From assembly GCA_000310025.1 (NCBI GenBank), contig FN649743.1, forward strand, positions 2,077,913-2,141,912: DNA of 64,000 bases, in the 5' to 3' direction. The notes below the pieces were generated by a model. It saw only the letters and a list, made by a program, of their open reading frames with translations, was not told where the DNA came from and ran no database searches. This document shows, one piece after another, positions 4,212 to 63,552 of the stretch (its first letter is position 1; every line of letters starts with the position of its first letter). This DNA comes from Ectocarpus siliculosus (taxonomy: Eukaryota; Sar; Phaeophyceae; Ectocarpales; Ectocarpaceae). The position numbers and the translations under genes are program-made.

Positions 4212-4213
4212 TA

Positions 4214-20900: not shown

Positions 20901-21000
20901 NNNNNNNNNNNNNNNNNNNNNNNNNNNNNNNNNNNNNNNNNNNNNNNNNNNNNNNNNNNNNNNNNNNNNNNNNNNNNNNNNNNNNNNNNNNNNNNNNNNN
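20901..21000. other. Assembly gap (100 N) in a poly-G tract
   Basis: The N run is bordered on both sides by G homopolymers broken by AAA and GAGA (20860-20900 and 21001-21027), so the gap probably marks a homopolymer that stopped sequencing. Confidence 0.95.
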
Positions 21001-30672: not shown

Positions 30673-33233
30673 CCGATCGGCCGGTAGAACACGGGATTTA
30701 TTTCGAGTCTGTTGATATATGTATGTTTTTTTTCGGTGTGTGTGGTTTGTCTGTGAGTGTGTGTGTGTGTGTGTTTTGATGCTAGTTTCGGTCGGCTCCT
30801 GAGAAGGGAGACAGAATTGTGGCGGGCTCTCTCGACTAGACAACAGAGGCGAATCTGAATTTGGGGGGGGGGGCGGGGGGGAGGGGCTGCCCTAGATTTG
30901 TTGTGCTTGTGTTTTGCGGCCTCCCTTTCTTGCCCTCGACATTCCAGCCAACCAATCGCGTTTCCGAATTGAGTATTGGACGATGTACCACGTTGTTACA
31001 GACCACCCGCGGGTCTTCATTCACCCAAGCACGTAGCCTACGTTTTTGCTTCAGCGTCGGTGGATGTCTTGTGGCCGTGTTTGTTGCATGTCGATCCAGG
31101 CCCATCTAATACGCCTAAAAAAGCAAGCAGTAAGTGCCACATATCCTACGGCGGTCTCTTAAGAAGGGCAGCAACGCGAAGTTGCAGGCTTTTCCCGGCC
31201 TCCGTTTCGAGAGTTTCGTGTGTGTGTGTGCCGTGTGCCGTGTGCCGTGTGCTGTGGGGCTCGCGTCCGGTTCCGGGTCCGGTAGGATTTTTGGATGGAA
31301 CCTTACGTTTTTTCTCAGCACGCAATAACGACACTTTGTATTGGCGTTGATTGATTGGTGTTTGCGTGGATTGTTCGCTGTTGTGCTGACTTGCGTCAGC
31401 AGCAGCAGAGGATGATTGCGCAGATTTTGGGTTGTGCTTGTTGTGCTGACTTGAATCAGCAGCAGCAGGATCAGCAGCAGTGCGGCAGCGCCGAAGAAGA
31501 GATGGAGTCTTTGTACGTGTACAATATGTCTTGTGCTGTAGACCAGCGGACGAAGTGCGGTGCTGTCCCACCGTTCGGTTGTGTGTGTGCGCGCACGACG
31601 ACCCTTACGTACCACCGATAGGACCATTTTTGTTTTCGTTTTTTTTGTTTTTGTTTGCTAGTTCCATTCCGGTGGGTGTGTCGGTGTCGGTTTTGTTGTC
31701 GGGTGTTTTGCCACTCTGGCGCACGCGAGCGAGACACTGCTCACTCATTATATTCTCTCTTATGATATATTATTGTCGTTGGTCCACTACTATTGTAGTG
31801 CGGGGTTAGCGATCAATCACCTCGTCCCCGCGCGATTATTTGCCCTTTTTTTGTTTGTTTGTCGTCTTGTTTTGTGTCTTCCCCCCCTGTGGCAGTAGAG
31901 TAGGCGCCTCCGTCGATATTCGTTTTTTGGAGGGGGGAGAGCGTTTGGGATTTTGTCGGTTCCGCGATTTTGCGTAGCGCTACCACTGTTAGTGTTGTAG
32001 AAGCTGCACCTTGTGCTCGCTAAGCGTGCTTGCCAGCTGCTGCTTTTCCAACACCGCAGCAGCAGCAGCAGCAAGTGCCCTCACGGCCGTGTCTTGGTTG
32101 GTGGGAGAGGCCGCGCTCGTTTTGGTCGTGCACTTTTTGCGAGTGGCAGCCTGTTGCTGCGGCGGGGGCCATGCTCTTGTCATCCTATTGCTGGAGGGAT
32201 GGCAAGGTGTGTGTTCTGATTGTTTCTGCTCCTGCTTCTGCTGCTGCTGGCAGGTCGGTCTGCGTTTTGTTGTCTGCAGGACGCGTTGTCATGCCTCCCC
32301 TTTCCTTGTTGACGGGATTTTTTTGGGAACTTTCTTCTTGAGGAAAGAACCTCGTGCATGCATGGCGCCTCTCCTTCGTAGGTTTGCGACAAGATGTTGG
32401 GTGGTTTTGTGCGACGTGTGGGGGTGGGTGTGGACGTAGGGAAAAGGGTCCGCGGCCAAAGGGGGGCGTCTTGTTGGGAGTAGGAAGATATACCATGGAA
32501 ACGAAAAAAAATTAAAGCGGGCAAATAAAAAGTTGTAGACTGGTCTAATAGTACAGTAAACATGCTTTGGATGATTTTGATTACCTGTACCGGCTCGTGT
32601 TGGTGTAGACGACGGGCAGAGGTTGGCGAGAGGCGAGCATTCCCTTCGGGTGCCTGGCTTTTCATTTTTTTTTTGCGTTTGCGTTGGTTGCTGCCTCACA
32701 GCAAGAAAGTGCTCGTAGGAGTACGGTATCGCAAATAGAGAGCAGCTTATACGATGTAGAAAGCGCTGCTCGTTGATTGGATGGTGGTAACGTTTTTTCT
32801 TCTTTTCCCTCCATCTTTTTTTGGTTGTGTTTTTGCTTCCCGCCCACCTGTTGGTGGTTGTTTGGTGGCGGGTCTAAGGGTAGAAAAGCATGATCGTGAT
32901 CCTTCCTTGTTGGGTGGTTTTTTCTTGATCCGGGTGCGCAGATATTGTGCAAGGTTGTGGCTGGGGGTCTGTGAAGAAGAACGGGCGTCTCTCTTTGGCT
33001 GTGGAGAAGAGGAGACCACGGTGGTATCGGTAGCGTCATGGGCGTGGCCGTTGCCTCAGATATTGATGGCGGTACATTTCTTGCATGTCTTGCCAAACAC
33101 ATACAATACATGATTTCTTGAAGAAACCCGTGCACAGAAGACAAGAACGTTCTTCGGCGGACGTTGGGGAAGAGAGATGGAACCCCCTTTTGTCAAGGTT
33201 CTCATCTCAAAATATATTACCCCCCACACAACA
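30673..33233. other. Intergenic, no gene recognised
   Basis: About 2.5 kb after the kinase gene. It begins with the likely 3' UTR (GT run at 30755-30775). A duplicated patch lies at 31380-31470 (TTGTGCTGACTTG, two units, each followed by CAGCAGCAG). CTG/CAG-rich stretches occur at 32040-32080 and 32225-32255. No ORF resembles a known protein. Confidence 0.45.
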
Positions 33234-33650
33234 TTTTTGCGGTAACCATGAGTGGTGATCGAGTAGATCATGTTGTGCGGGGTTGAGAACCCTCACTCCG
33301 CGCCAAAAAGGATAACCGCATCACGTTGTGTTCAATTGGTCAAGCACCCTCGGGGCAGTCACACAGTGCTTCTAACTGTCTCTGGAAGTGAAAGCACCAG
33401 GAAAAAATAAATAATGTCATACGGAGCTGTCATCCGTACGCAAGGATGTAAGCACAAGATGCCGAACACCCTTAGCAGGATGCAGCGCACCCTTCATGCG
33501 ACTTGCCGAATACCTCACGGCGCTTCGCGCTTGGTGATGTGAGAGCCTGGTCCGGTGAGAACCCGGCGTGCTCCGTCCCGGTTTTGTAGGGATGCGAGGT
33601 CAATGGTCTATCGACTACGGCATGCACGACTGTGATTACACCCCCCCACC
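33234..33650 (+). mobile_element. SINE-like element, copy 1 (oligo-C tail at right)
   Basis: About 415 bp, repeated in inverted orientation at 40291-40314 plus 41625-42002 with roughly 85% identity by eye. The right end reads GGTCAATGGTCT, then GGCATGCA, then a C-rich tail, the same order as the 3' end of the LINE in this window. On the opposite strand the same stretch has a tRNA-like look (TAGACCATTGACC and GGGTTCTCACC about 45 bp apart), a weak hint of a polymerase III promoter. No coding potential. Confidence 0.7.
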
Positions 33651-33769
33651 CCCCACTCATGCGCTCACACATGTGTAAATTTCGGATTGGCTCTGTTGGC
33701 AAAGCGCTGTACAACAGCAACCCCAAATATAGCCCCCACGACGTGTGCGCTACAAAACAAACGCGCGAC

Positions 33770-34830
33770 GCATGGTCGAGTGGAGTGAGGATAGCTGCAC
33801 AATATTTGGATATCNNNNNNNNNNNNNNNNNNNNNNNNNNNNNNNNNNNNNNNNNNNNNNNNNNNNNNNNNNNNNNNNNNNNNNNNNNNNNNNNNNNNNN
33901 NNNNNNNNNNNNNNNNNNNNNNNNNNNNNNNNNNCAAGCATCAGTCAATTTATGAGATAGCTGCATACTGAAACTCCAATGACTGATTGGTGTGCGAGAG
34001 TGCCTTACACAACTCGCAAGGATAGCTGTATCATGAAACCTCACAGGTGGATTGATGTTTGTTTGAGATTGCCCAACACATAGATAGGCGCGTTGAGTGA
34101 GGGTAGCTGCATACTGAAACCTCACGGGTTGATGGTTGCTTGGGATTGCCGGACACATAGACGCGTTGAGTGAGGATAGCTGCATACTGAAACTCCAATG
34201 ACTGATTGGTGTGCGAGAGTGCCTTACACAACTCGTAAGGATAGCTGTATCATGAAACCTCACAGGTGGATTGATGTTTGTTTGAGATTGCCCAACACAT
34301 AGATAGACGCGTTGAGTGAGGGTAGCTGCATACTGAAACCTCACATACTGAAACCTCACGGGTTGATGGTTGCTTGGGATTGCCGGACACATAGACGCGT
34401 TGAGTGAGGATAGCTGCATACTGAAACTCCAATGACTGATTGGTGTGCGAGAGTGCCTTACACAACTCGTAAGGATAGCTGTATCATGAAACCTCACAGG
34501 TGGATTGATGTTTGTTTGAGATTGCCCAACACATAGATAGACGCGTTGAGTGAGGGTAGCTGCATACTGAAACCTCACATACTGAAACCTCACGGGTTGA
34601 TGGTTGCTTGGGATTGCCGGATACATAGACGCGTTGAGTGAGGATAGTTGCACACTGAAACCTCACGGGTGGATTGGTGTTTGAGACGCCAGGACACATA
34701 GACGTGTTGAGTGAGGATAGCTACATACGGACACCTCATGGTTGATTGTTGTTTGAGATTGCCGGACACATAGACGCGTTGAGTGGAGGGTGCTGCATAA
34801 TGAAAACCCACAAGTAACATAGTGCAGCAT
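33770..34830. repeat. Satellite array with three-unit higher-order structure, broken by a 120-N gap
   Basis: Basic units of about 73 bp read GATAGCTGCATACTGAAAC, a variable middle, then TAGACGCGTTGAGTGAG. Three unit types alternate in a fixed order. The composite repeats at 219 bp (34021 to 34240) and 234 bp (34240 to 34474); the 15-bp difference is an internal duplication of CATACTGAAACCTCA. N fills 33815-33934. The right end decays into diverged single units (34640-34800). Both periods are divisible by three, and the minus strand is open over most of the array; this looks like a property of the satellite, not a gene. Confidence 0.9.
33815..33934. other. Assembly gap (120 N)
   Basis: Unresolved bases inside the satellite array; sequence on both sides belongs to the same repeat. 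Confidence 0.98.
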
Positions 34831-35603
34831 TATGAAAACCCGATCCCGTACCCGACCCCCCCTGGAAATAGAGCCCCCCCCCTCCCCTCACCCCCCTCTC
34901 TCCCTCCCCCAGAGTCAGAGGGGGGCACAGTCCAAAATAGGCGCAAGCCTACCCAAGGTTAATGCCTATTCAGATACTAGTCTCCATTAGGCGGTGGAGG
35001 ACTTCAGAGTTAAGACACCCCGAAACTCTCCGGCGTGAGATCCAAAATTGATCGGACGGTGAAGGGGGGGGGGTGTTCGTTGCCGGAGGTGGATCTAAAA
35101 AACATGGAGCCACCAAAGCAAAGCGTATTTACTCACGTCGAGAACAGACTGACAAACGAATGACCAACCACGCAAGAAATGCGGAGTTAGATCTATGTGC
35201 GGCACGCACAATGCATTGTTTTTCGATTGGAGAGAGGCGAGTAAAAGCAGTAGGGAATTGTTGGCCAAACTTTCGGCTGATAGGTCTACTCGGGAGCGTA
35301 AGTGGGGTAGCAACCCATGGTGGAGCGTATATGAGAAGCTGGACGTTGGTGTACGCTCCATCTCGGCGTGTGAGTAGGATCTTGGGCTATGCAAGTCATC
35401 CCTGAACTTATTGTGGTGAAAATGGCCTCCCAGGAGGAAAGTAGCCTGTACCGCGGGAGTTCGGAGATGATGAATTGAGTGGTCGGGGGACATCTGGGCG
35501 TTTACTAAGCAGAGCGCCAGGCACAAGACTGGGATACTTGTGCCAGGAGGTGGGAACTTGGATGTAGACTACGAGCCCATGTTGGAGGCGTTATTTAGCG
35601 CCG

Positions 35604-39741: not shown

Positions 39742-40290
39742 ATGATGGTTTGACGCCTATTGTACATCGAAGCCGTATCGATATCGTATCTAATTATATC
39801 GATGTTCGAACCGATATCGGTTCGAATATCGAACGCCCCGTGGCCACATCGTCCGAAGCGGAATTTTGCTTCGATATGCAACACTAATAATAACATATGT
39901 GTGTCGCATGCCTCAAACAGCTTGGGCATCGCATGATTGCGGTCCTCCTGTGAAGCGTTGTCTCCTCTTTTTATTTTGGTGTTACGCTTTTGTTACAGTC
40001 CTCCACGAAGAAACACTTAACTTTGGGTGTGTTGTACTTCGACGTAAATGTTAATGTTTCAATCGTTTACACCATTTGTCGATTCCATGGAACCCCATAG
40101 AATCCATACGAGCCCCACGGAGTGTCATGGAACCCCATGCCACTCCAATCAAGACGGCCGGAAAGAAACGGCATTTTTATTCGCTCTCGCCACCGGGGCC
40201 AGCGGGCGCGCTGTCCGAGTACCCAATGAAGGATCCATCCTGCTTCTTGTTCAACGTGTAGATAAGGCGCGGGGTGGGGGGGGGGGGGGG
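39742..40290. other. Non-coding stretch with a TATCGAT-rich patch and a palindrome
   Basis: It contains repeated ATCGATAT-type motifs at 39775-39835, a perfect palindrome at 39805-39826, a short doubled CATGGAACCCCAT motif near 40087 and 40127, and a poly-G run (about 40275-40291) that borders the SINE-like remnant. No gene seen. Confidence 0.5.
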
Positions 40291-40314
40291 GTACTCACAT
40301 TCGTGCATGCCGTA

Positions 40315-41624
40315 CAGTGGGGGCTACGGTTTATGAGAGGGGTGTGCATGACCAAGAAGACCTCTCTTAAACACGACCTTCTCTTAGTCCGATTTAAGAG
40401 AGGTTGTCTCTTAAACAGGGATTTCGGTTTACGAGAAAACCAATCCTAAACCGATTATATGGCTATACTAACAGGGTCTAGCCTGATCGAAGTGATGAAA
40501 GGTATTGTTTATTTGTGTTGCACAATGTTTTCGTTCGTTTATAGGCCCTTACCCAGCGTGATTCCTTTATTGTTGTACGAAGCACAACAACACAGCAGCA
40601 GTAGGAAACATGCAGCAGAGTAGCAAATACAGATAGGTGTAATTCATTGGTCTCCAAGGTGTACAGCAGTGTATTCTGGCATGGGTGGTTTGTAAACAAT
40701 GAGGCGGGGGGCGGGGGGGGGGGTACTTTTTATGTTTTGCACGCCTTACTTAGCGGTTAGACCATTGACGACGCGTCCTCGAGAGGACACAGCATAATTC
40801 CCGCAAGACCGATCACCGATGGCCAATCGTTTTCCTTCCTACTTTGCCACAGACAGACGTGGCTCAAAATAAATGTCGACCTATCCTATCGATGTCACTT
40901 CCCGCCTTTTCACCCCACTTCCTATGCGTATGCCCCATACAGCCCCGCCTTCTCCCGGTTACTCCATGCCTTAAACATCTCCCTGTAACCCCGTTCTACG
41001 TTTTCGCCACAGCTCAGTCATGTACACCTACCTCCCTTTCCTTGTACAACGGACAACATTCGTTCCGCAAGCAAGTACTGACCCCGGTCTTCGCACTCGG
41101 AGCCGCAAGCACATTTATTTGAACTTATTCTTGTCGTCTTCATCGTCTACCTTCTTCCTAAATCTTTGTCTACGTTCTCGAAGGCCAATGTCCCCGATCC
41201 TGAATTTGACCTTCAGCTTTGGCCCATTTGGTCCATGTAGGTACTCCTTCAACCCGATTCCTTTTTTCAACATTCCGTACACATCTAGACCCTCATTATC
41301 CTTTGTTTCTTTGGTTAAGTATGCTCTCCTCTCTCGGCAAGAGCAACAGTGTGTGCGTGTGTGTGGTCCGGCGCCCCGGGCATTCGTGGGAGCTGTTTGT
41401 CTCGCTACCTATGATCGCATGTACAGTGGTGGGGGACAGGTGGTACAGCAAGAGGTGGGGGCTACGGTTTAAGTGGGCTGCAGAGGGGGGGGTGGGGGAG
41501 GGGGGGGCAGGTTCGGTTTAAGAGAATCGGGGTTCGATTTATGAGAGGTGTGTCTAGCTATTTTGACCTCTCTTAAGCTGGCAATTCTCTTAAAGTGAGC
41601 TCTCTCAAACTGCAGCCCCCACTT
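40315..41624. mobile_element. pogo-like (Tc1/mariner-type) non-autonomous element
   Basis: The left end is CAGTGGGGGCTACGGTTTA; the right end read inward is AAGTGGGGGCTGCAGTTTG. The inverted ends of about 25 bp differ at about five positions. TA flanks both sides (40313-40314 and 41625-41626). Sequence near the ends repeats GAGAG and CTCTCTTAA motifs. No transposase ORF was seen. A LINE fragment (40724-41353) lies inside, and a second similar end at 41453-41480 suggests a partial internal duplication or a nested relative. Confidence 0.65.
40724..41353 (-). mobile_element. LINE 3' fragment, nested in the pogo-like element
   Basis: The reverse complement matches 50870-51464 over its length: the segment coding for the post-RT region, the Cys/His knuckle region and the 3' end (GGTCTAACCGCTAAG, then GTAC and a C run, here seen as poly-G at 40703-40723). 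The reading frame is broken, so it is older than the copy at 50472. Confidence 0.85.
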
Positions 41625-42059
41625 TAGTCGTTAGACCATTGACCTCGCATCCCTACAAAGCCGAGACGGAGCACCCCGGGTTCCCACCGGACCAGGCTCT
41701 CACATCACCAGGCGCGAAACAACGTGAGGGTTCGGCGAGTCGCATGAAGGGTGCGCTTCATCCTGCTAAGGGTGTTCGGCATGTTCTGTTTACTTCCTTG
41801 CGAACGGATGACAGCTGCGTATGACTTAATTTATTTTCTGGTGCTTTCACTTCCAGAGACAGTTGTAAGCACTGTGTAACTGCCTCGAGGGTGCTCGACC
41901 ATTTCAACACAACATGGTACGATCATCCCCTTTGCGCAGAGTGAGGATTCTCGACCCCGCACAACATAATCTACTCGACCACCATTATGGTAACCGCAAA
42001 AACAAAAAAGAGGAAAAAAAAGAAGCGGTAACCTGGTTGCCGAGCTCACGAAGTGGATC

Positions 42060-49252: not shown

Positions 49253-52200
49253 TGCACGGTCACCGTGTCCTACCCCCAGCCCCCCCTTTCGGGAGGGCAA
49301 GAGGACGACTCCCCGCAAACCTCTGGTTCTCTCGGCACTTTGACCCACGAACTCGAGGTGACCGTGAAGTACGTCCGGCGGGAGATTCGTGACCTGACGG
49401 ACCGGGACCGGGAGACGTTCTTCAACGCGGTGTCGGTGCTGCAGCGCGTGCCCAGCGCCGTCGGGCGCGAGATCTACGGCGATAAGTACTACAGCAAGGG
49501 TTACTTCAACCGGCTTCATATTTTCTACGGTGGGTGGTGTCGTGACGCTTGAGAGCTCTGCTGTCGGCCCGAGAGTTGCGCTCTTGCAGTGGTGCTCGAT
49601 CCCTCTCGCGGGGGTGCGACGCTGCGAGTACTAAGCTACCGTATAATTGTAACCGTAGTGGATCACCCCGCCCCCGAACTTGTGACCCCTGGATAAAGGT
49701 TATTTTGTCGGGCTGTGTCCTGTCGGAACATCATACCAACCCTCCGACGCGGGAATACTGGTCGTTTATGTGGACCCATTGTTACATATACATGAGGACA
49801 ACGGCAAGGGCAACGGTCGCTTAAACCGACATGGGACGTGGTGACCGATTCCCCTCCCCACGCCTGGCGTTAGAGAGAAAATACCTGAGTAGGACTCACC
49901 AACCCCTCGCTCCTCCCACCCGCCCGCGGTCAAAAACACTCCGGCCTACTCAGGCGGGCATAGGGACTGCGACCACTAGTACGACGGGGCTGGTTTCGTC
50001 ACCTCCCACATCGCCCTCTCTCTCATGTACGAGCAGGCCTTGCAGTCGGTCAGCCCCTCGATCGCGCTCCCCAACTGGGACTTCACCATCGAGGGCATGA
50101 CCTACGACTGGAGCGACTTCCGGACGAGCAGCGCGTTCTCGGACGATTGATTTGGCGAGGCGTCTCCTCGCAACGTGAGGGGGGGGCAGACCCTTTGTGT
50201 ATGTCTGACGGGTTGAGACGCTAGTACATGCAACTTCGAGCCTATAAGACCACAGGCCAGACGCATTTTCCTTTCCCGAACCCCGTTAAATGTCTTTCGC
50301 AAACATCACGCCGTTCACCCCTGCTCAACACAAATTCTGTAACGAATCGTCCCCGAGGCCGCCTCGTCTGCCTCTCTCCGCACATGGAAGCCACCTTCCT
50401 TCTCGTCCTCCCCTCTTCGTTCTCCTTGTGCCCTCGTAGAGTCCAACGCGGGAAAACTACCCCCCCCCATCAGAGCGTAATCGTACCGCCGCTGGAGTAC
50501 GCCGGAGAAGTATGGGAAGGAAATAAGAAGGTAGTGAAAGAACTCGAGGCGGCGCAGATGAAAGCAGCGAAAATTATCCTAGGATGCTCCAAGCGCACAA
50601 GTAATGCAGCAGTCAGGGCAGAATTGGGGATCCAATCCCTACGGTCGGGAAGAGACGTAAGGAAGCTGACATGGCAGTACCGCATGTGCGGGATGGGAGA
50701 GGAGAGGTTGCCGAGAATAGTATGGGAGGCGAAGTGGGCCAACAAAAAGAGGGGTAGACAACCCACGGAATGGGTCAAGGTTGTAGAGGACGTATGGAAG
50801 GGATTGGACATCGACGAAGATGAAACGCTGGAAACGGAGGGTCTACAGGGGTTCAAGAAGAAGATATCTGTTGCTTGTGCCGACAGAGAAGAACAGAATC
50901 TAAGGAAAGAATCCAAGGATAAGGAGGGTCTAGAAGTGTACGGAATGTTGAAAGAAGGAATAGGGTTCAAGGATTACCTACATGGACCAATGGATGCAGG
51001 GACAAAGCTTAAGGTCAAATTCAGGACCGGGGACATAGGCCTTCGCGAACGTCGACGAAGACATAGGACGGTAGACGACGAAGACGACAAGTTCAAATGT
51101 CATTGCGGCTTCGAATGCGAAGACAGTGTTCATGTAGTCGCGGAATGTCCGTGGTACGAAAAGGAGAGGGAAGTGTACATGACTGAGCTGGGAAGAATAC
51201 AAGGGACGTACAGGGAGATGTTTGAGGCATGGAATAGAGAGGAGAGGACGGTAGCGGTACTGGGGAGTAGGAAGTGGTTTGAAAAGGCGGGAAGTGACAT
51301 CGGTAGGATAGACAGACTAGGGAAGACATTTTTGAGCCACCTTTGGCAAAGTAGGAAGGAACGATTGGCCATCGGTGATCGGTCCTGTGGGAACAATGCT
51401 CCGTCCTCTCGAGGACGCGTGGTCAATGGTCTAACCGCTAAGGCATGCAAAGCATAAGAGTACGCCCCCCCCCCCATCCGCTCGCAACCGAACTCCTTCT
51501 ACCGCAACCCTCCTCCACGTTCAGTTGCTCCGACTGAAACCTTCAACTGTGTTTTGAGACGATCCCTACTTCCCCCCTTCCCCGTCAACGGCATACCATG
51601 CTTTACTCGCTGATGAGCCTGGCAGGGGACGTTTCGGTTTCATTCCCGTCATGGCGAACGCCACCGAGTATTCGACGTTGCACAACCCGTACGGGTTGCT
51701 GCGGTCCCCGTGGAAAACGCACCGGAGCCCTTCCTGACGCGGCACGACCGCCTGTTCGGGTACAAGAACAACCGCGAGCCGGCCGGGTGCAAGCAGTACC
51801 GAGACGCGGCGATGCAGGATACTTGGTGAGAGGACTTCGCGTTGCGGCCGTCGCTGCCGTAGCCACATCAACACAAGAGCGGAGTATGAATACATGAATA
51901 CAGAACGGGTCCGTCGAATTTACTCAAGGCTCAGTTTCATATTTCATCGCCCCTGTCGGACATAGGTTGTTCCATTAAGTTTAGTCTAGGGTCCACCACA
52001 GAGCTGTGTTTCTTATATCCTGTTGTTCGCGAAAGCTTGAGCCTCTGTTTCTTATATCGAAATGTTTCTTTAACTGCGGGCCCGTTCTGTAGTACACGAA
52101 TACCTTCGCCCGATCCTGCCCCTCGCCTTCGCTTTCGGTGTGAGAAAAAATCGTGTTCTGCATGTACAATAGCGGATCATCGCCTGTTGACGGGGGTGTT

Positions 52201-53230
52201 GTGTCCGTGATCCCTCGGTGCGAGTCTCTTCGGCATCACGGAGGTAAACGGGGCGTCCGTCGCCGCCGATGTTGTTGTGTGGCTGAGGACACGTTGACGC
52301 TGCTGATGCGGCTGCCGATGTGGGGCTTGGGTGTTCGTGCTGCCTTCACCATCTTCGCTTTCGCAACTTGTGTCCTTGTCGTCGTCGTCATTTCCCTGAC
52401 CTCACCCACGGAACCAGAGAAACACCATTTTCGATTCACACTTTCGGGCGTTTTTTGTAGCTCCCGCCCACGCATGGTTCGGCTGTCGACAATGCGCTGA
52501 CAAGCAAACGCCGCGCCCCTTCACCCGCGCAGGATGTTGCTGACGGACTCGATGAACGCCGGCGCGCACGGGCACATCCGCGAGCTCCTCGACGGAACGT
52601 GGTCCTCGTACTGGTCCGGATTTTACAACCGGACGGAGGAGATCGTCCTCCCGTTCGTGCACACGATTTTGGTGAGCACGAATGAATCTTGGTTTGTTGC
52701 GCATGGTGAACCTCTTGTTATTGTTGTGATTGTCGTTGTTGTTGTCGTTTCTGTCTTGCGGTGGTGCTGCCCTGTCGTCCGTGACGATTCGGCCAAGAGA
52801 CCGGCTCAGAGCGGACAGCTTTTGCCGACGGCAGTTTTGGGCTGTTCAAGCAACCTACGGTGGTAGCATTCCATGCTTGTGGCTTTCCTGCAGCATGAGG
52901 TAGAGCGTTTTTTACCTCACCGCCCCTCCTCACCGCTTGCTACGCATCATCGACTCGAGCTTACGAGGGCGTCGAACCAAGTAGCGCTGCTTTTCTGAAG
53001 CTCTTCCGTGTTGAGTTCCTGTGGCTTGAACGTCCGCCGCCCGCCACTTCCGTGTCCCCTCTGTGCGTTCTTGCCGTCCCTGTCTTCACCAAAACCAGCC
53101 TCTGATGGAATATCTTTGGAGAGCGGACTACCTGCAGTGCAAGACGACGTACGAGCTTCAGCGTCTCGTGGGCGGATTGCAGGTGTGCACCCTCAGCGCC
53201 GAAGCGGTGGCGGGGCAAACACCATCAGAG
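49253..53230 (+). pseudogene. Tyrosinase-like copper protein gene, probably inactivated
   Basis: Five exons recognised: 49253..49529, 49954..50174, 51618..51825, 52533..52671 and 53099..53230. They read as one tyrosinase central domain: EIRDLTDRDRETFFNAVSVL, YFNRLHIFYG, GHRDCDH, FVTSHIALSLMYEQALQSV, ALPNWDFTIEG, FGFIPVMANATEYSTLHNPY, FLTRHDRLFGYKNN, AGAHGHIRELLDGTW, LPFVHTIL and LMEYLWRADYLQC. Tyrosinases oxidise phenols at a two-copper site held by six His; several are visible. Damage: in-frame TAG at 49977-49979 (after DCDH) and TGA at 50148-50150 (after FSDD), both where relatives probably carry Trp, and a one-base loss near 51705-51715, since exon 3 has 208 instead of the 209 bases its phases need. 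Splice sites look intact. The 5' end was not found; sequencing errors remain possible. Confidence 0.72.
50472..51464 (+). mobile_element. LINE 3' end (5'-truncated), frame intact, with oligo-C target duplication
   Basis: It lies in an intron of the tyrosinase-like gene. Its single open frame, ending at 51457, encodes the C-terminal part of a non-LTR retrotransposon polyprotein after the RT core: LEYAGEVWEG, ELEAAQMKAAKIILGCSK, AAVRAELGIQSL and a Cys/His knuckle CHCG...HVVAECPWY. The end of the ORF overlaps a potential hairpin (GTCCTC / GAGGAC near 51402-51415). The element is flanked by a C run plus ATC on both sides (50460-50471 and 51465-51478). The open frame suggests a recent insertion. 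Confidence 0.88.
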
Positions 53231-54337
53231 GTATGCGCTCGGTCTCCCTGAATTCGTCAACAAAGCTCGTGTCTTCGCGGTAGAAAGGTCAAGGCGGGAG
53301 AACATGGCATTTGCGATTGTTTCAGGCTTGGTGCTCTGTTCGTTCCGCCAACACAATGCTTCCATTTCGCCACGTCTAGTGCACTTCTTGGGTTGTTCGA
53401 CGAGTCCGAGCCAATGGCTGTTTGTTGCTCTTTCGATCGCACGGAACGAAGAGGAACATAACACGAAAGGCGTTGGCCTGGCCTTCATGATGCGCCCTGC
53501 TCACCGCAGGATAAACACGACAACAGCACTTTACCCGGGAGCAAGCACCGCCCCGTCGAGATTGTTGAGCGCGCCTCGAGCCGCCCCACATTTGCGGGGG
53601 CCCGCAAAGCCACACCAGGGTGCTGAATCTTCAATCTTCTCACACACACTCCTCGGCACTGTAGATAAACTCTGGGTTGGGCGATCTCGGTGTTGCAAAC
53701 TGGTCACACGTCACGGTTGCTCCAGAAACCGTTGGGGTGTCAAAGCTTTGTCTTCCCTCAAAAGCGTTTGCACAGACACACACACCAAATGCTTTGTGCG
53801 TTGGTGCAGCATTGATCGTAAGTTTCCTTCACAAACGAGCATCGCAGGTGCTTCACACTACCTCAGGGGCGCGCGTGGCAGGCCCCGAAAGGAAACATCA
53901 ACATTTGTCATTGTTTTCAGTCGTGGTATTAATTGCATGCGTTTCCTCCGGCGAGTTTACTCTGCGGCGATCAGTGCTTTTTACGTTAGACAAGTGATAC
54001 AATTCTCATGCAGGGTACCAAGGAAAAAAAATGCACACAGACATACACACACCGCGCTTGTAGACGACGGAAGCAGTACTTCGCGCACGGTCGTTCATGG
54101 GACCCCGAGAGTGTTGGTTTGCACATGGGTGAAGGGAAGAAAAGGAAAAGGAAAACGAAAACGAAAACGACTACATACCCTGACTGGTTTCGGGCTGAAC
54201 CGTAGCCGGCGCAACCGCAGGAGATAGCGCCATCACAACTGGTCCCGATGGCCGTCACAAGCGGGACCGGTGCCGTCGCGAGGGGGCGTGTCGTCGCCAC
54301 GGAATGAGGTAGAACTGTTTTTGTTGTGGCACGGGGG
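53231..54337. other. Non-coding, possibly the end of the tyrosinase-like gene
   Basis: A GTATGC donor at 53231 suggests further exons downstream, but none could be recognised. The long ORF at 53304-54227 has no family resemblance and is Arg/Lys-rich by chance at its end. Tandem AAAACG/AAAAGG hexamers occur at 54137-54172. Confidence 0.4.
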
Positions 54338-54708
54338 GGGGGTACTCTTATGTTTTGCATGCCTTAGCGGTTAGACCATTGACCACGCGTCCTCGCGAGG
54401 ACGGAGCATTGTTCCCACAGGACCGATCACCGATGGCCAGTCGTTCCTTCCTACTTTCCCAAAGGTGGCTCAAAAATGTCTTCCCTAGTCTGTCTATCCT
54501 AACGATATCCCTTCCCGCCTTTTCAAACCACTTCCTACTCCCCAGTACAGCTACCGTCCTCTCCTGTCTACTCCATGCCTCAAACATCTCCCTGTACGTC
54601 CCTTGTATTTTTCCTAGCTCAGTCATGTACACTTCCCTCTCCTCTTCGTACCACGGACATTTCCGCGACTACATGAACACGGTCTTCGCATTCGAAGCCG
54701 CAATCACG
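54338..54708 (-). mobile_element. LINE 3' fragment with perfect 18-bp target duplication
   Basis: The reverse complement matches 51100-51464. It is flanked by the direct repeat TTTGTTGTGGCACGGGGG (54320-54337 and 54709-54726). In the LINE's own direction the duplication begins with CCCCC, directly after the 3' end. Five additional G at 54338-54342 extend the tract. The frame is open over most of the fragment. Confidence 0.9.
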
Positions 54709-57459
54709 TTTGTTGTGGCACGGGGGAGAGAGAAAATGAATAAGAATGGAACTGAGGAGATAATACACACATATCAATTCAAAAGTCATCCAAACATTTC
54801 TACCACTTCGGTTTTCTGCCAAACCCGCCTAAAAATACTTCCAACAACAAATGCTCACCTCCGCCAATACACGGGCGCTCGGCTGAAGCTACCGTTCCCT
54901 GAGTTGATGGACACAATGGACTGAAGAATTCCCCGGTGGCGACCTTCGAAGAAAGGGTTTTTCTTCCTCCTGGCATTATCATAAAACCTCGCTGGCGTGT
55001 CTCTCCCGTGCATCACTGGCTCCCTAAAGCTGTTACACTTGGGTCGTCCAAGGATATTCCTTGTGCCACAGCATCACCGTGAACGAGGGTGATGTACTCC
55101 GTCCGTGCGATGTGGGGGGCCCAGTTGGGAATGACAAAGCACTGGCGTCCGATGTATTTCATAGGATCCCGGTACCACTTGCCACCGAAGCACTTGCCGT
55201 TGACGTCAAATGGTCCCGTTGTATCGCCGAGCTTGCTCTTGCTAGCAATCTCCATGCGCTTTTGCAAGGTCTTAAGCTTTTCTGCTGGCAATTTTCCCCG
55301 GATGTTTCGCCTCCAGCTTCCTCAGCTGCCCCAGCAGCTCCGACCTCTTCGTGCCAAAAGCTCGCTCATGAGCGGACGACACACATGACCACGAACACAG
55401 AGAAAGTTTCTCCACCATCTCGCTTTTCTCGTCGTGAATTACCGCACCTGAGTCATGTCACGATGGGGGTGCTCGATATTTTGTTTGAGTCTCAAGCAGC
55501 AGAATGTCGATACTTCGGCATCTTAGAGCTGACATTGGTCTTGTTTGTCTGATTTCCTATTACCCAGACAACAACACGAGAAACGAGGTGCACACCTTTC
55601 TTTGTTGGAATGACTCACCGTTCTGTGCGTTTTCGACTTCTTGCAGACCAGATCCCGAGCCACTCCGCCGTGTACATGTGAATTTCGTGCCAAGCACCTC
55701 AGCGCACACTGGGACCGCGTGACCGCGCTGGTCACACGGTCCGTGTAGCCATATGCGTGGCTGAATGAAGACACGTCTTGGAGAGAGATACCTTGTGTGA
55801 TCAACCGCTCGACGACGGGGGTTATCCAGTCCGCTTCTAGGTGACTCTCGTCCGTCTTCCGCCAGTACTTCTTGTTTTTGGCCCGAATTTCCCAACACAT
55901 GTCCACCTCCTCGGTGTTCACCTTGGACATGATAGGAAGTATGCCATTCGTTTCTAAGATGCTGTGCGCCATATACAGCTGCTGTCTCCGCTCCTTCGGT
56001 TCGACGGTGGCATCGAGTCTACCTCGGTCGTGTTTCCTTCCATTCCCATATTGCGGATCGCAGTTTTCGATGTCCGTCGTAATTTCTTCTTTTGGGCAGC
56101 CACCGTCTTGTAACTCTCGTAATAGGTGATCACAATCTGCTCCCCTTTGATATCTGGTTTCGCGCAATCTCGAGGCAATGTTAAAGAATTGGTCGTTTTT
56201 CCGCGTGGGCGCCACTTTCGACCTGCGTTCCGACGTAGCCCTGATGCTTCCGAGGTGAACGGGTCTCGTCGGCAAAAGGAGGCGGCTTAATGGGACTTGT
56301 GTGTACCAACTGAATCTCCGATCCTTTTCCTTCTCCTTGCCATTGGATGCTCTGGCCAAAATCGTCCTCATGGCTAGACAATGCCTAGCTGACTCCGAAT
56401 TTTTCATTTTTCAACTTTATCTTATCACCCTACCCTTGGTCCAATACATAGCCACAAGGAAGCTCGCTGAAAAGGCCACTAGCGACGGGTGTAACCCATG
56501 AATCGATGCTAGTGAAACGCCCCAACTTCCACGACTCCTGTGCCCCTCTCAATATATGCTTGACGAACACTAGGTGATTGTCGTGAAACCCTGTGCCAGA
56601 CTCTCCCAAAAGCCCATCCTTGTTTTCTGACACCCCCAGCATCTCCAAAAAAGATCCTTCTTTCTTAATGTCCCTCGCCAGATCTTTGTCCGCAGAAACC
56701 AGATCGCGTTCATGAGCGCTCACAGTATCCACCCGTCTAAGATTGTGTACGGTGTCCCAGATGAACTTTCGTAATATACCCTCTTCCTCCTTGTCTGTCC
56801 CATCCACTAGCTTCTTACCAGGCAAGGGTTCCTTGTCGAGATTGGCGTCTTGAATCACGAAGTTGTAAACGTGTACATACGCTATGCACAGGGCAGCGCA
56901 AAGAAATATGTTAAAATCTGCGCTTCTCGTCTTGGAGCGAAACGGCACCCTGGTTGTCGACGGCGTGCTCGTGAACTTCGGACGTGGACCGCTTGCTATC
57001 ATCGGAGCCATCATCCCAGCATACAGAGTACAAGACGGTGGGGCTCTTGCCAATCGCAACACTTTTGACAACCCCCTCTCGTTTATGGTTGCAACCCGAC
57101 CGTACACGCGTCCCGCCGACCCCAGCCCCTGGGGGTATATTTCCGTATAGCCGCACGTCATACTTTTCACACTTACGGTAAACTTCCATCGGAAAACACC
57201 TCTTCGCAATCTTCGCAACTGCAGCATGGCATGATGAGTTTCTAATAAAGTTATGCCTCGGAGGTCTGGCGGGGCTGATCTTTCTCTCTCATCATCAACC
57301 TCGCCGGCTCTCTTCTTGCTCGACTCCACCAACTCGTTTTGTTCTACAGTGAGAATCTTGAAAAATGTGTCTGAAAGAACTCTTATTCGCGGTCCCTCGA
57401 CGATCCCCCTGCTTTTTCTCACCAGCCTTGTCCGCGCCCTTATCCTCTCTGCTCTCCTC

Positions 57460-57480
57460 CTCCTCGTCCTCCTCCTCCTC

Positions 57481-57511
<31 letters not shown>

Positions 57512-57520
57512 TCCTCGCCG
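57460..57520. repeat. (CTC)n / poly-Glu microsatellite
   Basis: A CTC triplet run, read on the minus strand as Glu codons within the PHD-containing block. Confidence 0.9.
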
Positions 57521-59574
57521 TTTTCCCCCACACAAGACCTCTGGCACTCGGGGGCAAAACCACTGTATCGCAGGACAGGACGAAAACAAGTTGTGCAGAA
57601 ACGGTTTGTTTGTGGCCAGGATGAATCACATGTCATTAATTGTACTCCAAAATGAGCAGATCTGGTCTGGTATCCATTTATCAGGATTCACCCACCTTGC
57701 CATCTGGTTCCTCGTCGAGGCCGACATATGCAAAGTGATACATGTAGGCTTTGTCACAATACCGGCCACCGCCAAGCTCGTTATCACAAAGCACCATCTT
57801 TTCGAGCCCGTCGCTTCCACACGCCATGCACGGTCGATCGTCATTTTCCTCGCTGCTTTCCTCGACCGTTTTCGCCACTCCCCTCGACACAGCCGCAGCG
57901 ATGGCTTCAACATCAGCGGCGGTAGGGGCAGCAGCTACAGCCTCCTTCTCCTTCCGTTCCTCTTCCTCCAGCTGCTTCTGCCTGGTCGCCACCCTGGCTT
58001 CCGCCGCTGCTTTTTCTTCATCTGTCCACGCTTACCGGTGTGTATCGTACTTATCGGGTTGTCTGCCGTCGCGGATTGCTCGACGTGCTCCTCTGCCTAC
58101 CAACACTACATGCTCGCCACCACCAGCGCTCCCCTGGGTAAATGCGGACAAGGGTTGATAATATGTCGTGGTTCCGGGTAGCTTGGTTCGCCATCACGGT
58201 CAACATATATCTTTACCTTTTTGCTTTACCCGACCACCCGACTTCAAGAATAATTTAGCTTACCGCTTCATCCTCTTCCGTTGTCACCACCGCCCCTGAG
58301 GTTATTGCGCGAGTGCCGCAGAGCATCCTCTTCTCTCGCGCGCCCTCGCCTGCGCCTGTATCCGCGGCTCAGCTTGCCGCTTGTGCCCTTACCACGCCTA
58401 CCTCTTCTGTGCCGGCGACCCCTGCCGCAGCGACCACGCCAACCACGGCCGCGCCAGCCGTGAAGGCTCCCGCGGTTGTTGCTGCGGCGGTGGCAAAGCC
58501 GACGAGACTTCTTGGTCCGAGGCCGGGTAGGATCCACGGAAGCCTGTTCGCTCTCATCCACGTCCATGCCAACCCCCTCCCCGCCCACAGTTGTCCCCTC
58601 TTCCCGCTCATCGCCCTCGACCGCCTCCGCCCCCCGTGCTGCTTCAGCCTCTGCCTTCCGCGCCTCGCACGCTTTCTTCCTCGTTACCGCACGCTTCTCG
58701 TTCTTCTTCTTGCTGCGAATGGTGCTGGCGTTTGCCACAGCTACTTTGATCCTTGCCCCCAACTGTTTGCATAGGCGTGACGAAAACAATAAACACAAAA
58801 TGAGCCTCATATTTCCTCCTGTAACATTTACTGCCCGTGCAAGCGCGACCGCAAAAAACTAGAAAAACCGAAAAAATAACATCAACTAAGTAATCACCTC
58901 GGCATGCCTGCGGGTTCGCTGGCTTCCAGTAGTCGTTTCGCCAGTCCTGGGGTTGACCACGTGTGTGTACGGATAGAGGCACATTGAATATCGCGGAGAA
59001 GGGCTCCGATGCAGGCTCCGAGGAACCAGGTGCCGAGGCACCAGGCTCTGAGGCAGGCGCAGGGATAGCCGGTGCGAAGACGTTGCTGGGATCGTAGGAA
59101 AGGAGGGTTGCTGTGCACAAGGACGCCGCGATTTCCTTGGCCTCCGCGGACATCTCGGGGTCCCGGTCGAAGAAATTCGCCTGAAAATGGCGCAATAGCG
59201 TGCACGCGAGGGGTGTGTCACTTTGTGAGCCGTGGACTCGAAGCGGTTGTTTTCATGCAGAACACATCCAGCGTGCTCCAGGGGCTCCGTCCTGCCGTCG
59301 ATGTCTGTTAGCGAACCACGTTCTGCCACAATCCGCGTGTATCATATTACGCGTTCTTTTTCGGGATCTCTTGCTCCCATATCTCCCGTAGATCGGACGC
59401 CATCTCCTCCATCTCGCCACCACCCGTTAAGGCCCCAAACGCTTCTTCGTCGTCAAGGAACGTCCGCCCCGCGTGCACGGTCATCTCGGTCCAAACTTGG
59501 ACCCGGTCGATGCCAATAAGAAAGACACACACACCATGCCGCCCCCTCACGGGGTCCCAGTTAATGGCATTTAG

Positions 59575-59650
59575 AAGTGGTTGTGTTTTCAACCGCACTG
59601 AGACTGACGTCTTTTCATTGGTCAGCCGGTTAGCGCGGTCGATGCTAATA
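59575..59650 (-). repeat. Dispersed short repeat (GGCTGACCAATGAAAA family), copy 2
   Basis: The reverse complement carries GCATCGACCGCGCTAACC, GGCTGACCAATGAAAA, GACGTCAGTCTCAGTGCGG and TGAAAACAC. It is followed by an ACAC-rich tail on the + strand. Confidence 0.85.
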
Positions 59651-59856
59651 ATAAAAAAAAACACTCACACACACCCCGCCTTCAACCCCCCTCACCTCCC
59701 CCGGCCATACCTACCTGCCCACCCTTCCCTCACCTCGCCTCAGTTTTAAGCCCCGATTGTACGTAACCAAGGTCAGAGCCAGTAACACTCTTGTACTGAT
59801 CCTCACCACGGTTGTCTCTTCCTTCGCTCCAAACTTTACAAGATGACACGTCCAGC

Positions 59857-60045
59857 ATGGCGGAGGCACAGAAGCAACACGAGGAACGGTCGAGGAACCT
59901 CCTCAACTGGCAGAGGCTCAAGAACTTCGCCAATGGTTCGTGTGGACCGTACGCCCTGCTTCAGCAACTCCTGGTAATTGTTCACGGGATGCATCCACGC
60001 GACGCCGAGTCGATCTTCGTCTCGAAGAACACCCCGACCATACGT
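59857..60045 (+). CDS. Short uncharacterised coding-like segment
   Basis: From ATG at 59857 about 60 residues read MAEAQKQHEERSRNLLNW, NGSCGPYALLQQLLVIVHGM and HPRDAESIFVSK before the frame enters the short dispersed repeat. Composition is protein-like, but no family was recognised. It may be an exon or a remnant. Confidence 0.25.
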
Positions 60046-60198
60046 CGCCTCGCTAACCGGCTGACCAATGAAAAGGCGTCAATCTCAGAGTGTGTGTGTG
60101 TGTTTATCGTAGTGTGTGTCTTTATCATTAGCATCGACCGCGCTAACCGGCTGACCAATGAAAAGACGTCAGTCTTAGTGCGGCTGAAAACACAAAAC
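60045..60198 (+). repeat. Dispersed short repeat (GGCTGACCAATGAAAA family), copies 3 and 4 in tandem
   Basis: CGCTAACCGGCTGACCAATG occurs at 60052 and again at 60141, separated by a GT-rich spacer with TTATCATTAGCATCGACC. Confidence 0.85.
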
Positions 60199-60329
60199 AC
60201 TTCTATCTGAGTGTGTGTGTATGGCGAAGGCTGTTAAGGTAGGTTTGCCTAGGTCTACCTTTGTGTGGGGTGTGTGTGTAAGAGAACCCGGGGGATATTT
60301 TGTTTTGGATTAGGGTAAGCCCGGATGGC

Positions 60330-61067
60330 GTGCACGGGCCAGCAAAAGCGGGGGAGACAACCCACGGAGTGGGTCAAGGTTGTAGAGGACGTATGGAAGG
60401 GGTTCGAATTTGGCGAAGGTGAAACGCTGGAAACGGAGGGTCTGGAAGGGTTCAAGGAGAAGATATATATCTGTTGCTTGTGCCGAGAGAGAAGAGCATA
60501 ATCTAAGGAAATAAACCAACTATAAGGAGGGTCTAGAATTGTACAAATGTTGAAAGAAGGAAAGGGCTCAAGGATTACCTACATCGATCAATGGATGCAG
60601 GGACAAAGCTGAAGGTCAAATTTAGGACCTGGGACACTGGCCTTCGAGAACGAACATAGACGAAGATTTCGGAAGGGAGATGATGAAGACGCCAAGTTTA
60701 AATGTGATTGCCCCGCCGAGTGCGAAGACCGGGTTCATGCAGTTGCGGAGTGTTCGTTGTACAAGAAGGAGAGGGAAGTGTACATGACTGAACTGGGAAA
60801 AATAGAAGGAAGGTACAAGGAGAGATGTTTGAGGCATGGAATAGCGAGGAAAAGACGGTAGCCGTACTGGGGCATATAGGAAGTGGGTTGAAAACGTTTA
60901 TCATATGTGGATAGACAGACTAGGGAAGACATTCTTGAGCCACCTTTGGCAAAGTAGGAAGGAACGATTAGCCATCCGTGATCGGTCCTGTGGGAACAAC
61001 ACTCCGTTCTCTCGAGGACGCGTGGTCAATGATCTAACCGCTAAGGCATGCAAAACATAAGAGTACG
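60330..61067 (+). mobile_element. LINE 3' end, degraded
   Basis: It matches 50730-51464 over its length, ending CTAACCGCTAAGGCATG, CAAAACATAAGAGTAC and a C run, then CACACACAC. Small indels break the frame, so it is older than the copy at 50472. The left border and target duplication are unclear. Confidence 0.85.
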
Positions 61068-61079
61068 CCCCCCCACACA

Positions 61080-62164
61080 CACACTCATGTTTTGTTATAG
61101 AGCCTCTTTCGTATGTGCTACCGAAGAAGAGAAGGCTTCCAGGTGTGGGAAATCGGCTGTCGCGCCGTGATCAAACGGAAACAAACGCGGTGAACGAAGC
61201 AAAATCGGTCGGAAATAAAGTGCAAAACTCCCAGCCTTATCATTTTACGTCGAGAACCGGTGCCCATTCTGCACGTACTGTTTCATTCCCAAGAAGGATG
61301 ATATTGTGTGGGACATGAACCATGTGTAGTAACACTCATGAACCCATGAGTTAAATAGTACCAGGGCTGAGGGACTGCTCCAGGAAGACCAGAGACAGTT
61401 TTTCGTACACAACACACAAAATACCGTTGCAGGCGTACGAGGTTGTTATCTCAACACGAGGTTACACTTGCACGCAACACGACAAATAATCAGTATCTCT
61501 GTTCTGCGGCCCTCTTGTCATCACGTGTTGGTAGGTGGCGGGCGGGATTTGAACCCGGGTTTTCTGCCGCAAAAATCAAGGCGTACCACGGGTTGTAGGG
61601 ATACATGTCTTCGTCGTCGGCAGCGCGAAAAAGAAGAGCGGAGAATCGTTCGTCCTCGACGGACATTTTGGAGGAAATGTGAACTCTCTGTAAAGCTCTC
61701 ACCTCCACCACAAAACTCTGGATTTCTTTTCCCCCGATAAAACGGAGGGCGAAATTGTTGTGGAATCACGAGGCTACTGTAAGTAGGCCTGATGCCTTCG
61801 CTCCTCTGTTCATGGCATACTTGGCACGTTGAAGTGACACGAGTACGAAGAGCAACACAAGAGATTCTCACGAACCCACCCCAAAGTCGGTGTTTACGGT
61901 ATACTCCACTCTTCAGCGCAAGGATGCGCAAGATAATAACTATCGTTAGTGTGTAAAGTGTCAACACAAGTAGTCAGCTCCAGGTCATGAGCCCGGACCA
62001 CAATAGCGAATCGCATCCGTAACATATCCCATGCATGGGCTACGACGTACCCGTTGCTATCAAAATTCCGTGGTACTACATCGGCATAGGACGACTTGAC
62101 GTGGTTCTTCGACGACCCCACAGCGTGCCGCCTTCCTTGCTACCATTTTACGGTACGACTTCTT
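61080..62164. other. Intergenic, no gene recognised
   Basis: About 1.1 kb between the LINE fragment and the MAK11-like gene. A short stretch near 61255-61325 reads CPFCTYCF and then NHV, like part of a zinc-binding site, but stops at once. A T-arm-like GATTTGAACCC lies at 61545-61560. Neither is convincing. Confidence 0.4.
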
Positions 62165-63251
62165 CTAGACCTTCGCCCCGCTCTTCTTGCCCACACCCGT
62201 CCCGTTCTCTCGCCCCCCCCCTTCCCCCGCCCCCACGGTGCCGTTGGAGGCGGGGTCACCTTGAAACTGAACCTCCTTCGCCTTCTTGCGTTTCGACTTT
62301 TTCTTCTTTTTGTTGCTGCCGCTGCCGCCCGCGCCAGGCGCTCCTTCTTGACCCCGCCCCTCCTCTCCCGGCGGGCCTTGTGTTTGTCCGTCACCGGTGG
62401 CCTCCTGCTGCTGCCGCTGGCGCCGTTTTCGCTTCTTGGAGTTTTTGCTTTTTCCAGGGGCCGGCTCCGTGACGTCCCCGCACAAGCACGCCGTTACGCA
62501 CGTGAACCGGGGCTCCCCCTGCAGAACCCAAACAGCAGTCATCGGGAAATACCACACAGCGCAGAAGAGTTCAACCGCCAGGGGGGTCGGTTACGGCGAG
62601 AGCCCTGGTGTCGGGGAGGAATACGATTCGCTATTTGCCGGAATAGCGGCCACTAGTAGTGCCGTGCTACCGTATATGACACAAGATAACACACCCCCTG
62701 GGCCGATTTTCAAAGCTCGATTTCTCAACAGCAGGAAGAGTCACAGCGCCGAAAACGGCGGCGTTGGAACCGTCTCGTCGAGAGGTTTTCGAAAATGTAT
62801 TGTTTCGTTTATGCATCCTCTTCGTCGTGGAGTAATCGAGCTTTGAAAATCGGTCCAGGGGGTGTGTTATCTTGTGTCATATACGGTATTCTTGTGGCCC
62901 CTACACACGCTGGGCATGCCCGCTAAACAGGGAGGGTCGCTAAATCGGGCCCACCCACCACTATAGCATTACCGCAAAATCATCGTCCCCCTAGCGTACC
63001 TTCAGCGAGTGCGTCGAGAGCAGTGGCACCGTCAGCTCCGCCCCGGAGCCCTCCGCACCGACGCCCTCCAGTGTGGGAACTCCCCACACGTGCACCCCCC
63101 CCGTGGATGTAACCGTCGCCAGGGAACCCCCCCCCGAACAGGCACGGTCTCCGCCGCCGCCGCCGTCGGCGTCGGCGTCGGCGTCGGCTCCCACGTGGCA
63201 CATGTCGCGTATCCGTCCCGTAGGACACACGTCGCTAACGTCCACCTTGCC
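62165..63251 (-). CDS. MAK11/PAK1IP1-like WD40 protein, 3' end of gene
   Basis: Two minus-strand exons, 63251..63000 and 62518..62165, joined in phase 0 (GTACGC donor, TTCTGCAG acceptor); 201 residues to the stop, with more exons expected at higher coordinates or beyond the window. The first exon contains the last WD-type blade (GKVDVSDVCPTGRIRDMCHV, then SLATVTSTGGVHVWGVPTL). The second starts GEPRFTCVTACLCGD, matching the ARxTCLxV strand that closes the propeller in MAK11/PAK1IP1, followed by a long Lys/Arg-rich tail (KNSKKRKRRQRQQQ, KKKKKSKRKKAKE), also typical. Family members act in the nucleolus in 60S ribosomal subunit assembly. An Asp/Ala run (ADADADADGGGGG) sits inside the blade. The call rests on one blade, the closing strand and the tail. 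Confidence 0.62.
62670..62886. mobile_element. MITE with 53-bp terminal inverted repeats, TA target site (copy 2)
   Basis: A 217-bp element like the one at 3995-4211, about 95% identical by eye, flanked by TA (62668-62669 and 62887-62888). It lies in the intron between the two MAK11-like exons. Confidence 0.9.
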
Positions 63252-63430
63252 CTGCACAGCAGCCGACGAGCAACAGTAGTGGAGGTATTGTCGGTGAGGA
63301 GGAGGTTACTTCGGATGCTGAAGGCTAACTTCTTGCGCCTGCGTGTACCTCTCCCACCTCCCATCCAAAGACTGCACGTATCATACGCCGCGGGGAAGAA
63401 GCGTCTCGTGGTCGGGAGGGGGGGTGGGGG
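63252..63430. other. Intron or upstream part of the MAK11-like gene
   Basis: Directly upstream (minus strand) of the acceptor at 63252-63257. Blades 1-5 of the propeller should lie upstream but are not recognised here, so they are probably beyond an intron that holds the LINE fragment. Confidence 0.35.
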
Positions 63431-63529
63431 CGTACTCATTGACCACGCGTTCCCGAAAGGACGGAGAGAGCATTGTTCCCACAGGACCGATCACCGCTGG
63501 CCAATCGTTCCTTCCTACTTTGCCAAAGT
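63431..63529 (-). mobile_element. LINE 3'-terminal fragment (about 100 bp) with G-rich target duplication
   Basis: The reverse complement matches 51360-51450 (CTTTGGCAAAGTAGGAAGGA-type start, CCATCGGTGATCGGTCC-type middle, GGTCAATG end). Both sides carry TCGGGAGGG followed by a G-rich run (63412-63430 and 63530-63552), an imperfect target duplication. Confidence 0.8.
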
Positions 63530-63552
63530 TCGGGAGGGCGGGGGGGGGGGGG

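Follow-up and report, generated by a model that had tools for sequence, protein, structure and literature searches.

The stretch of DNA analysed here, referred to below as the window, comprises 64,000 nucleotides of contig FN649743.1 from Ectocarpus siliculosus (54% G+C, two N gaps). It contains five copies of a repeat resembling a long interspersed nuclear element (LINE), designated family A, as well as a shorter family resembling a short interspersed nuclear element (SINE), designated family B. The copies of family A share a 3′ end that runs into a tract of C, they are truncated, and the target duplications found around them carry C tracts. Family A was delineated by a blastn search with positions 50460–51500 against the window, and all five of the LINE-like copies obtained were kept in the analysis. 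They are named after their approximate positions in kilobases:

A51, 50472–51464, plus strand: 5′-truncated family A copy, the longest of the five
A54, 54343–54708, minus strand: 5′-truncated family A copy with a GAGTA end followed by C10
A61, 60337–61067, plus strand: family A copy with a broken frame, followed by C7; duplication not found
A40, 40724–41349, minus strand: family A copy with a broken frame and a GTA end followed by C11GC6; duplication not found
A63, 63431–63529, minus strand: 5′-truncated family A copy

Identity to A51, measured on the best blastn alignment, is 95.3% for A54 (380 positions), 91.3% for A63 (92 positions), 85.7% for A61 (748 positions) and 77.0% for A40 (657 positions). 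The five copies have five distinct 5′ ends and one common 3′ end of the form GGTCAATGGTCTAACCGC...GAGTAC(G)Cn, in which GTAC is followed by G in A51, A61 and A63 but not in A54 and A40. The open reading frame (ORF) of A51 represents the C-terminal end, approximately 325 codons, of an ORF of the LINE type and includes the CCHC-type motif CHCGFECEDSVHVVAEC. Motifs of this kind are common in LINE ORF2 proteins. The stop codon of A51 (TAA, 51455–51457) is followed by GAGTACG and then by the C run, giving a 3′ untranslated region (UTR) of ∼7 nt. Because only GAGTACG separates this stop from the C run, the conserved 3′ segment of family A is mostly coding. From the truncated copies, the common 3′ end, the duplications and the C-terminal CCHC-type motif, we infer that family A is probably a LINE, i.e. 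a retrotransposon devoid of long terminal repeats. A structure model of the C-terminal part of A51 is uninformative (mean predicted local distance difference test score, pLDDT, 41.5; predicted template modelling score, pTM, 0.27).

On the element strand, a C run of at least five directly abuts the 3′ end of every family A copy. After GTACG, this run is C11 in A51, C7 in A61 and C5-A-C7 in A63; after GTA, it is C10 in A54 and C11 in A40, both counts including the C of GTAC. For comparison, 0.59% of the positions outside the copies have the start of a run of C5 or more no farther than 2 nt away; the count of five in five is descriptive only, because the copies were singled out by their C runs. 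An earlier interpretation made from the letters of the window, here called the sequence-only reading, had pointed out homopolymers of C or G at two further 3′ ends (40724 and 61067), and these are indeed the C11 of A40 and the C7 of A61. A poly-A or A-rich tail of the L1 type is absent from all five ends.

Two further observations concern this 3′ region. In A63, ∼30 nt (GTCTAACCGC...CATAAG) are gone directly upstream of the final AGTACG (63431–63470), with the AGTACG, the C run and the duplication retained; if this loss is older than the insertion, the 3′ motif with the highest conservation is dispensable. A small hairpin, GTCCTC...GAGGAC, can be seen by eye and carries no statistical weight.

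Target duplications and origin of the C runs

Target duplications surround three of the five family A copies, with exact matches of variable length (12, 18 and 9 bp in A51, A54 and A63, respectively). They had been proposed, together with their C tracts, in the sequence-only reading and are present, with small corrections of their coordinates:

A51 left target copy, 50460–50471, plus strand: C9 followed by ATC
A51 right target copy with the tail/target run, 51465–51478, plus strand: C11 followed by ATC
A54 right target copy, 54320–54337, minus strand: CCCCCGTGCCACAACAAA on the element strand (TTTGTTGTGGCACGGGGG)
A54 left target copy, 54709–54726, minus strand: CCCCCGTGCCACAACAAA on the element strand (TTTGTTGTGGCACGGGGG), an exact 18-bp duplication
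A63 right target copy, 63412–63420, minus strand: CCCTCCCGA on the element strand (TCGGGAGGG), with C5-A-C4 between GTACG and the copy
A63 left target copy, 63530–63552, minus strand: CCCTCCCGA on the element strand (TCGGGAGGG) at 63530–63538, with C13-G upstream, beside G runs

The duplications of A54 and A63 are the strongest independent evidence. In both, the insertion site is fixed independently by the duplicated bases other than C, and the left copy bears C5 at its edge in A54 and CCC with C13G upstream in A63. For A54, neither 5000 random flank pairs nor 4000 random left flanks contained a case as good as the observed duplication, in tests where the script boundary scored 17 of the 18 duplicated bases. 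The exact 9-bp duplication of A63 has a p value of 0.0018 among random flank pairs, and 14 of 4000 random left flanks are as good. For A51, none of 3000 random stretches of 735 nt contained C7ATC or better. C5 or more (offset of at most 1 nt) stands at the start of a random site in 0.46% of draws. Empty sites were sought inside the window, where the flanks of six insertions matched only themselves and unrelated repeats.

The question of whether the terminal C run stems from the element or from its target is best approached through A54. CCCCCGTGCC is common to both copies of its duplication, and TCTCTCT stands before the left one; the target tract is therefore most simply C5. Ten C, one of which is the C of GTAC, stand between GTA and GTGCC, and five extra C (54338–54342) lie between the right target copy and GAGTA. 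The 3′ end thus holds more C than the left copy (C10 versus C5), as is also the case in A51 (C11 versus C9), a surplus that fits element-borne C or slippage. Conversely, the left copy has a C tract in all three family A duplications and in the one duplication of family B described below, and the C run is therefore at least partly target sequence. The sequence-only reading had said as much, seeing target sequence here in place of a poly-A tail, and on this point it holds. Overall, the terminal C runs look like part target and part element tail or slippage.

A probable short partner and other repeats of the window

Family B is short (∼410 nt) and SINE-like, and a stretch close to its 3′ end resembles family A. 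Its features are as follows:

B33, 33234–33640, plus strand: SINE-like copy in which 33548–33626 resembles the 3′ end of family A; GATTACA end followed by C7AC6
B33 probable left target copy, 33219–33227, plus strand: ACCCCCCAC, with the right copy at 33648–33656
B41, 41623–42002, minus strand: second family B copy, whose start at TTTTTGCGG is that of B33 and whose extreme 3′ end is replaced
Isolated B-like 3′ end, 40276–40315, minus strand: GTACGGCATGCACGAATGTGAGTA followed by C16

The kinship of the two 3′ ends is supported by a profile made from four family A ends only, which matches 33548–33626 in B33 (E 3.2e-6) and 41694–41622 in B41 (E 1.4e-5). The isolated B-like end is unmatched by this profile and weak on its own (E 0.071 with a profile of A and B). 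Both B-type 3′ ends present in the window also abut C5 or more, a count that includes this isolated end and excludes B41, which has no intact 3′ end. The common start of B33 and B41 at TTTTTGCGG is as expected of a full-length short element. By eye, both copies carry a stop in the frame aligned with family A, and B therefore looks non-coding. Signs of an RNA polymerase III promoter or of a head derived from tRNA, 5S or 7SL RNA were looked for in B: ARAGORN found no tRNA gene, Rfam gave no match at gathering scores, and promoter boxes were judged by eye only. The probable duplication of B33, ACCCCCCAC, is equalled by 4 of 4000 random left flanks; it was found after the C run was known and lies 6 nt from the shared start. 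Family B probably relies on machinery of the type that moves family A.

The missing end of B41 is substituted by a sequence that begins with GTGGGGGCT and ends with AGCCCCCAC. Sequences ending in TAAACCGTAGCCCCCAC occur at 41455–41622 and ∼40317–40500, the one joined to a B head and the other to a B-like tail. They possibly represent an element with terminal inverted repeats, bounded by GTGGGGGCT...AGCCCCCAC, that inserted in B. The two have no mutual match by blastn at E 1e-3, the stretches compared having been cut a few bases before the end that they share.

Other repeats accompany families A and B. A 221-nt fold-back element, likely a miniature inverted-repeat transposable element, is present as a 97% identical pair at 3993–4213 and 62668–62888, its inverted arms measuring 62 nt each and being separated by 97 nt. 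A further dispersed family (CCGGCTGACCAATGAAAA...CGTCAGTCT) has direct and inverted copies at 29651–29708, 59581–59665 and 60051–60198. A tandem array of 234-nt and shorter units (33891–34831) adjoins an N gap. G runs of 21 and 11 at 20857–21027 lie beside a gap of 100 N, where the assembly breaks at a homopolymer.

Probable insertion at C/G tracts and its alternatives

We regard it as probable that family A uses target-primed reverse transcription to insert at C/G tracts, and pairing between tail and primer may help to choose the site. In the established model of this process, the first nick is adjacent to the 3′ end of the element. Because C is the first base of the duplication on the element strand, the priming strand would have ended in G. 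The bottom strand would be nicked at or within a G run, and the exposed 3′ end of the G tract would pair with the C-rich terminus ...GAGUAC(G)Cn of the element RNA. Reverse transcription would begin at this paired end and frequently stop early, giving rise to 5′-truncated copies, and a second nick ∼9–19 nt away would produce a target duplication that has the C tract on its left margin. Family B, a non-autonomous element with a similar 3′ end, would probably use machinery of this kind too. The position and order of the nicks, the tail–primer pairing, the C tail in the RNA and the dependence of B on A-type machinery are elements of this scheme that we infer. A broader proposal, to which we give somewhat less than an even chance, is that a LINE lineage and its SINE-like partner swapped an A-tail/T-primer system for a C-tail/G-primer system, with an endonuclease preferring G tracts and with C/G homopolymers as landing pads.

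The sequence-only reading had gone as far as a homopolymer-specific LINE. The C tracts of the duplications speak for the association with homopolymers; specificity, as opposed to preference, does not follow from them, and two of the five copies are without a duplication. The respective weights of endonuclease preference and tail pairing in the choice of LINE insertion sites have, to our knowledge, been debated chiefly on the basis of A-tailed elements and their T-rich targets. If the proposed route is true, family A would offer a natural exchange of bases, with a C tail used on a G-tract primer, in which pairing and endonuclease preference come apart, and the tail–primer rule would become testable on one genome assembly. 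For now, the C-run family is a good lead, not yet proven, drawn from few copies within one window.

Several observations weigh against insertion of a LINE at C/G tracts. Searches with the family A copies gave no match in Pfam and none among PDB sequences, and neither a reverse transcriptase nor an endonuclease domain was recognised in the copies, the longest of which covers approximately the C-terminal 325 amino acids. The sample of duplications is small, with three for family A and one for family B. Among them, the 5′ boundary of A51 is unproven, being without independent support or homology, and the non-C duplicated part there is ATC only. In A63, the exact duplication starts with CCC, and the longer upstream C tracts agree by eye but for two mismatches. 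No duplication was detected by flank comparison in A61 and A40, where the best exact match is 3 nt; these are the two copies most diverged from A51, and decay would fit their state but proves nothing. The division of the runs between tail and target is approximate, as run lengths mutate. A conserved 3′ stem-loop for recognition by the reverse transcriptase was considered and is unsupported, the five 3′ ends folded as RNA being no stabler than shuffles (z from 1.00 to −0.60). Finally, the window holds 47 C/G runs of at least 7 nt versus 8.3 in 40 dinucleotide shuffles, and 41 A/T runs of this size versus 8.3. Given this general excess of C/G runs, targets are abundant.

The same counts bear on the earlier suggestion that family A accounts for the abundance of poly-G tracts in the window. 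Only 9 of the 47 C/G runs lie at the ends or targets of A or B and A/T runs are in similar excess, and family A is rejected as their cause. It is more likely that C/G tracts supply the targets of family A than the reverse.

Three other explanations of the C runs and of the repeats themselves have to be weighed. A short C tail borne by the element, that is, a one-base 3′ repeat, might be combined with an unselective endonuclease, the C of the target then being weak microhomology in a homopolymer-rich genome. We consider this unlikely. It would account for the surplus of C at the 3′ ends of A54 and A51, it has parallels in LINEs ending in TAA or TGTAA repeats, as described in passages of PMC3747384, and the excess of C/G runs in the window favours it; however, a random start with C5 or more is expected in ∼0.46% of cases, yet the left copies are C5 in A54 and C13GC3 in A63. 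This would imply at least a strong preference for microhomology, which is close to the model of insertion at C/G tracts. Expansion of the C runs by replication slippage after insertions that had little target preference is, in our estimation, improbable. Both classes of homopolymer are strongly in excess in the window, as slippage would have it, but the left copies, although separated from the element tail, retain C9, C5 and C13. Moreover, C5 is found in both copies of the exact 18-bp duplication of A54 and is therefore most simply older than the insertion.

The repeats could also belong to another kind of dispersed repeat or to a rearranged host gene family. The empty Pfam and PDB searches, the low-scoring structure model (mean pLDDT 41.5) and the missing reverse transcriptase leave some room for this, but a constant 3′ end combined with variable 5′ truncation, duplications that vary in length, and an ORF with a CCHC-type motif whose stop falls at the element end, make it very improbable. 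Insertion of a LINE at C/G tracts remains the reading that we prefer.

Relatives and comparison with known systems

Exact 3′-end patterns gave no match in viral and genome contig collections consisting mostly of prokaryote and virus DNA. Protein scans yielded 5 stretches fitting the pattern in viral contigs and 20 in genome contigs, none of them confirmed, and no relative of family A was matched by blastn of phages or tblastn of plasmids. Because of the composition of these collections, absent relatives say little about eukaryotes, and the whole case rests on one window.

Mammalian L1 has a poly-A tail used on a T-tract primer, duplications that begin with the tail base, and 5′ truncation. Family A is alike in that tail and target are complementary homopolymers, the duplication starts with the tail base and copies are 5′-truncated; it differs in having C/G for A/T and a 3′ UTR of ∼7 nt. 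In addition, family A has 3′ sequence in common with its short partner, whereas the 3′ ends of mammalian L1 share only poly(A) with SINEs, according to passages of PMC3747384. According to these passages, LINE tails can consist of A or of TAA, TGTAA or TTG-type repeats, SINE tails can consist of T, and there are LINE/SINE pairs with shared 3′ ends; poly-C is not among the tails that they name. Among the best-matching open-access papers, judged by titles and abstract openings, no C-tailed or C-tract-targeting LINE was found, although Fig. 1C of PMC12477816 may show a terminal motif of this kind, and mononucleotide C/G tracts were not met there or in the passages cited here as a type of LINE target.

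Closer parallels exist for separate traits of the system. In LINE/SINE pairs of the stringent type, such as UnaL2, a common 3′ sequence is followed by a simple repeat, as in A and B (passages of PMC3747384); in A and B, by contrast, the repeat unit is C and no 3′ stem-loop is supported. Microsatellites are among the targets of specific LINEs, and insertion at simple repeats is common to family A, some HERO families and Togen, the latter inserting in (TG)n (passages of PMC4640811). In the same passages, HERO is given a restriction-like endonuclease, Togen is related to the NeSL clade, and the repeat named is of two bases, as against the single-base tract of family A.

The best match in kind that was found comes from Ectocarpus itself. 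According to parts of PMC12477816, RTE-X is the LINE group with the most copies in Ectocarpus, and a non-autonomous family of ∼600 bp shares its 3′ end. The text of that source, as far as covered, mentions neither a C tail nor a C-tract target for these elements. RTEX-1 and RTEX-2_Ec32 with RTEX-N1_Ec32 thus resemble A and B as an abundant LINE with a short non-autonomous partner, the partner being ∼600 bp in RTEX-N1 versus ∼410 nt in B. Such a partner with a shared 3′ end, found here for A and B, is a trait of the published RTE-X pair and is not diagnostic of the clade. It is plausible that the RTE-X LINEs of Ectocarpus are the counterpart of family A, a likeness of descriptions rather than of sequences, and the RTE-X library of this genus may already contain family A.

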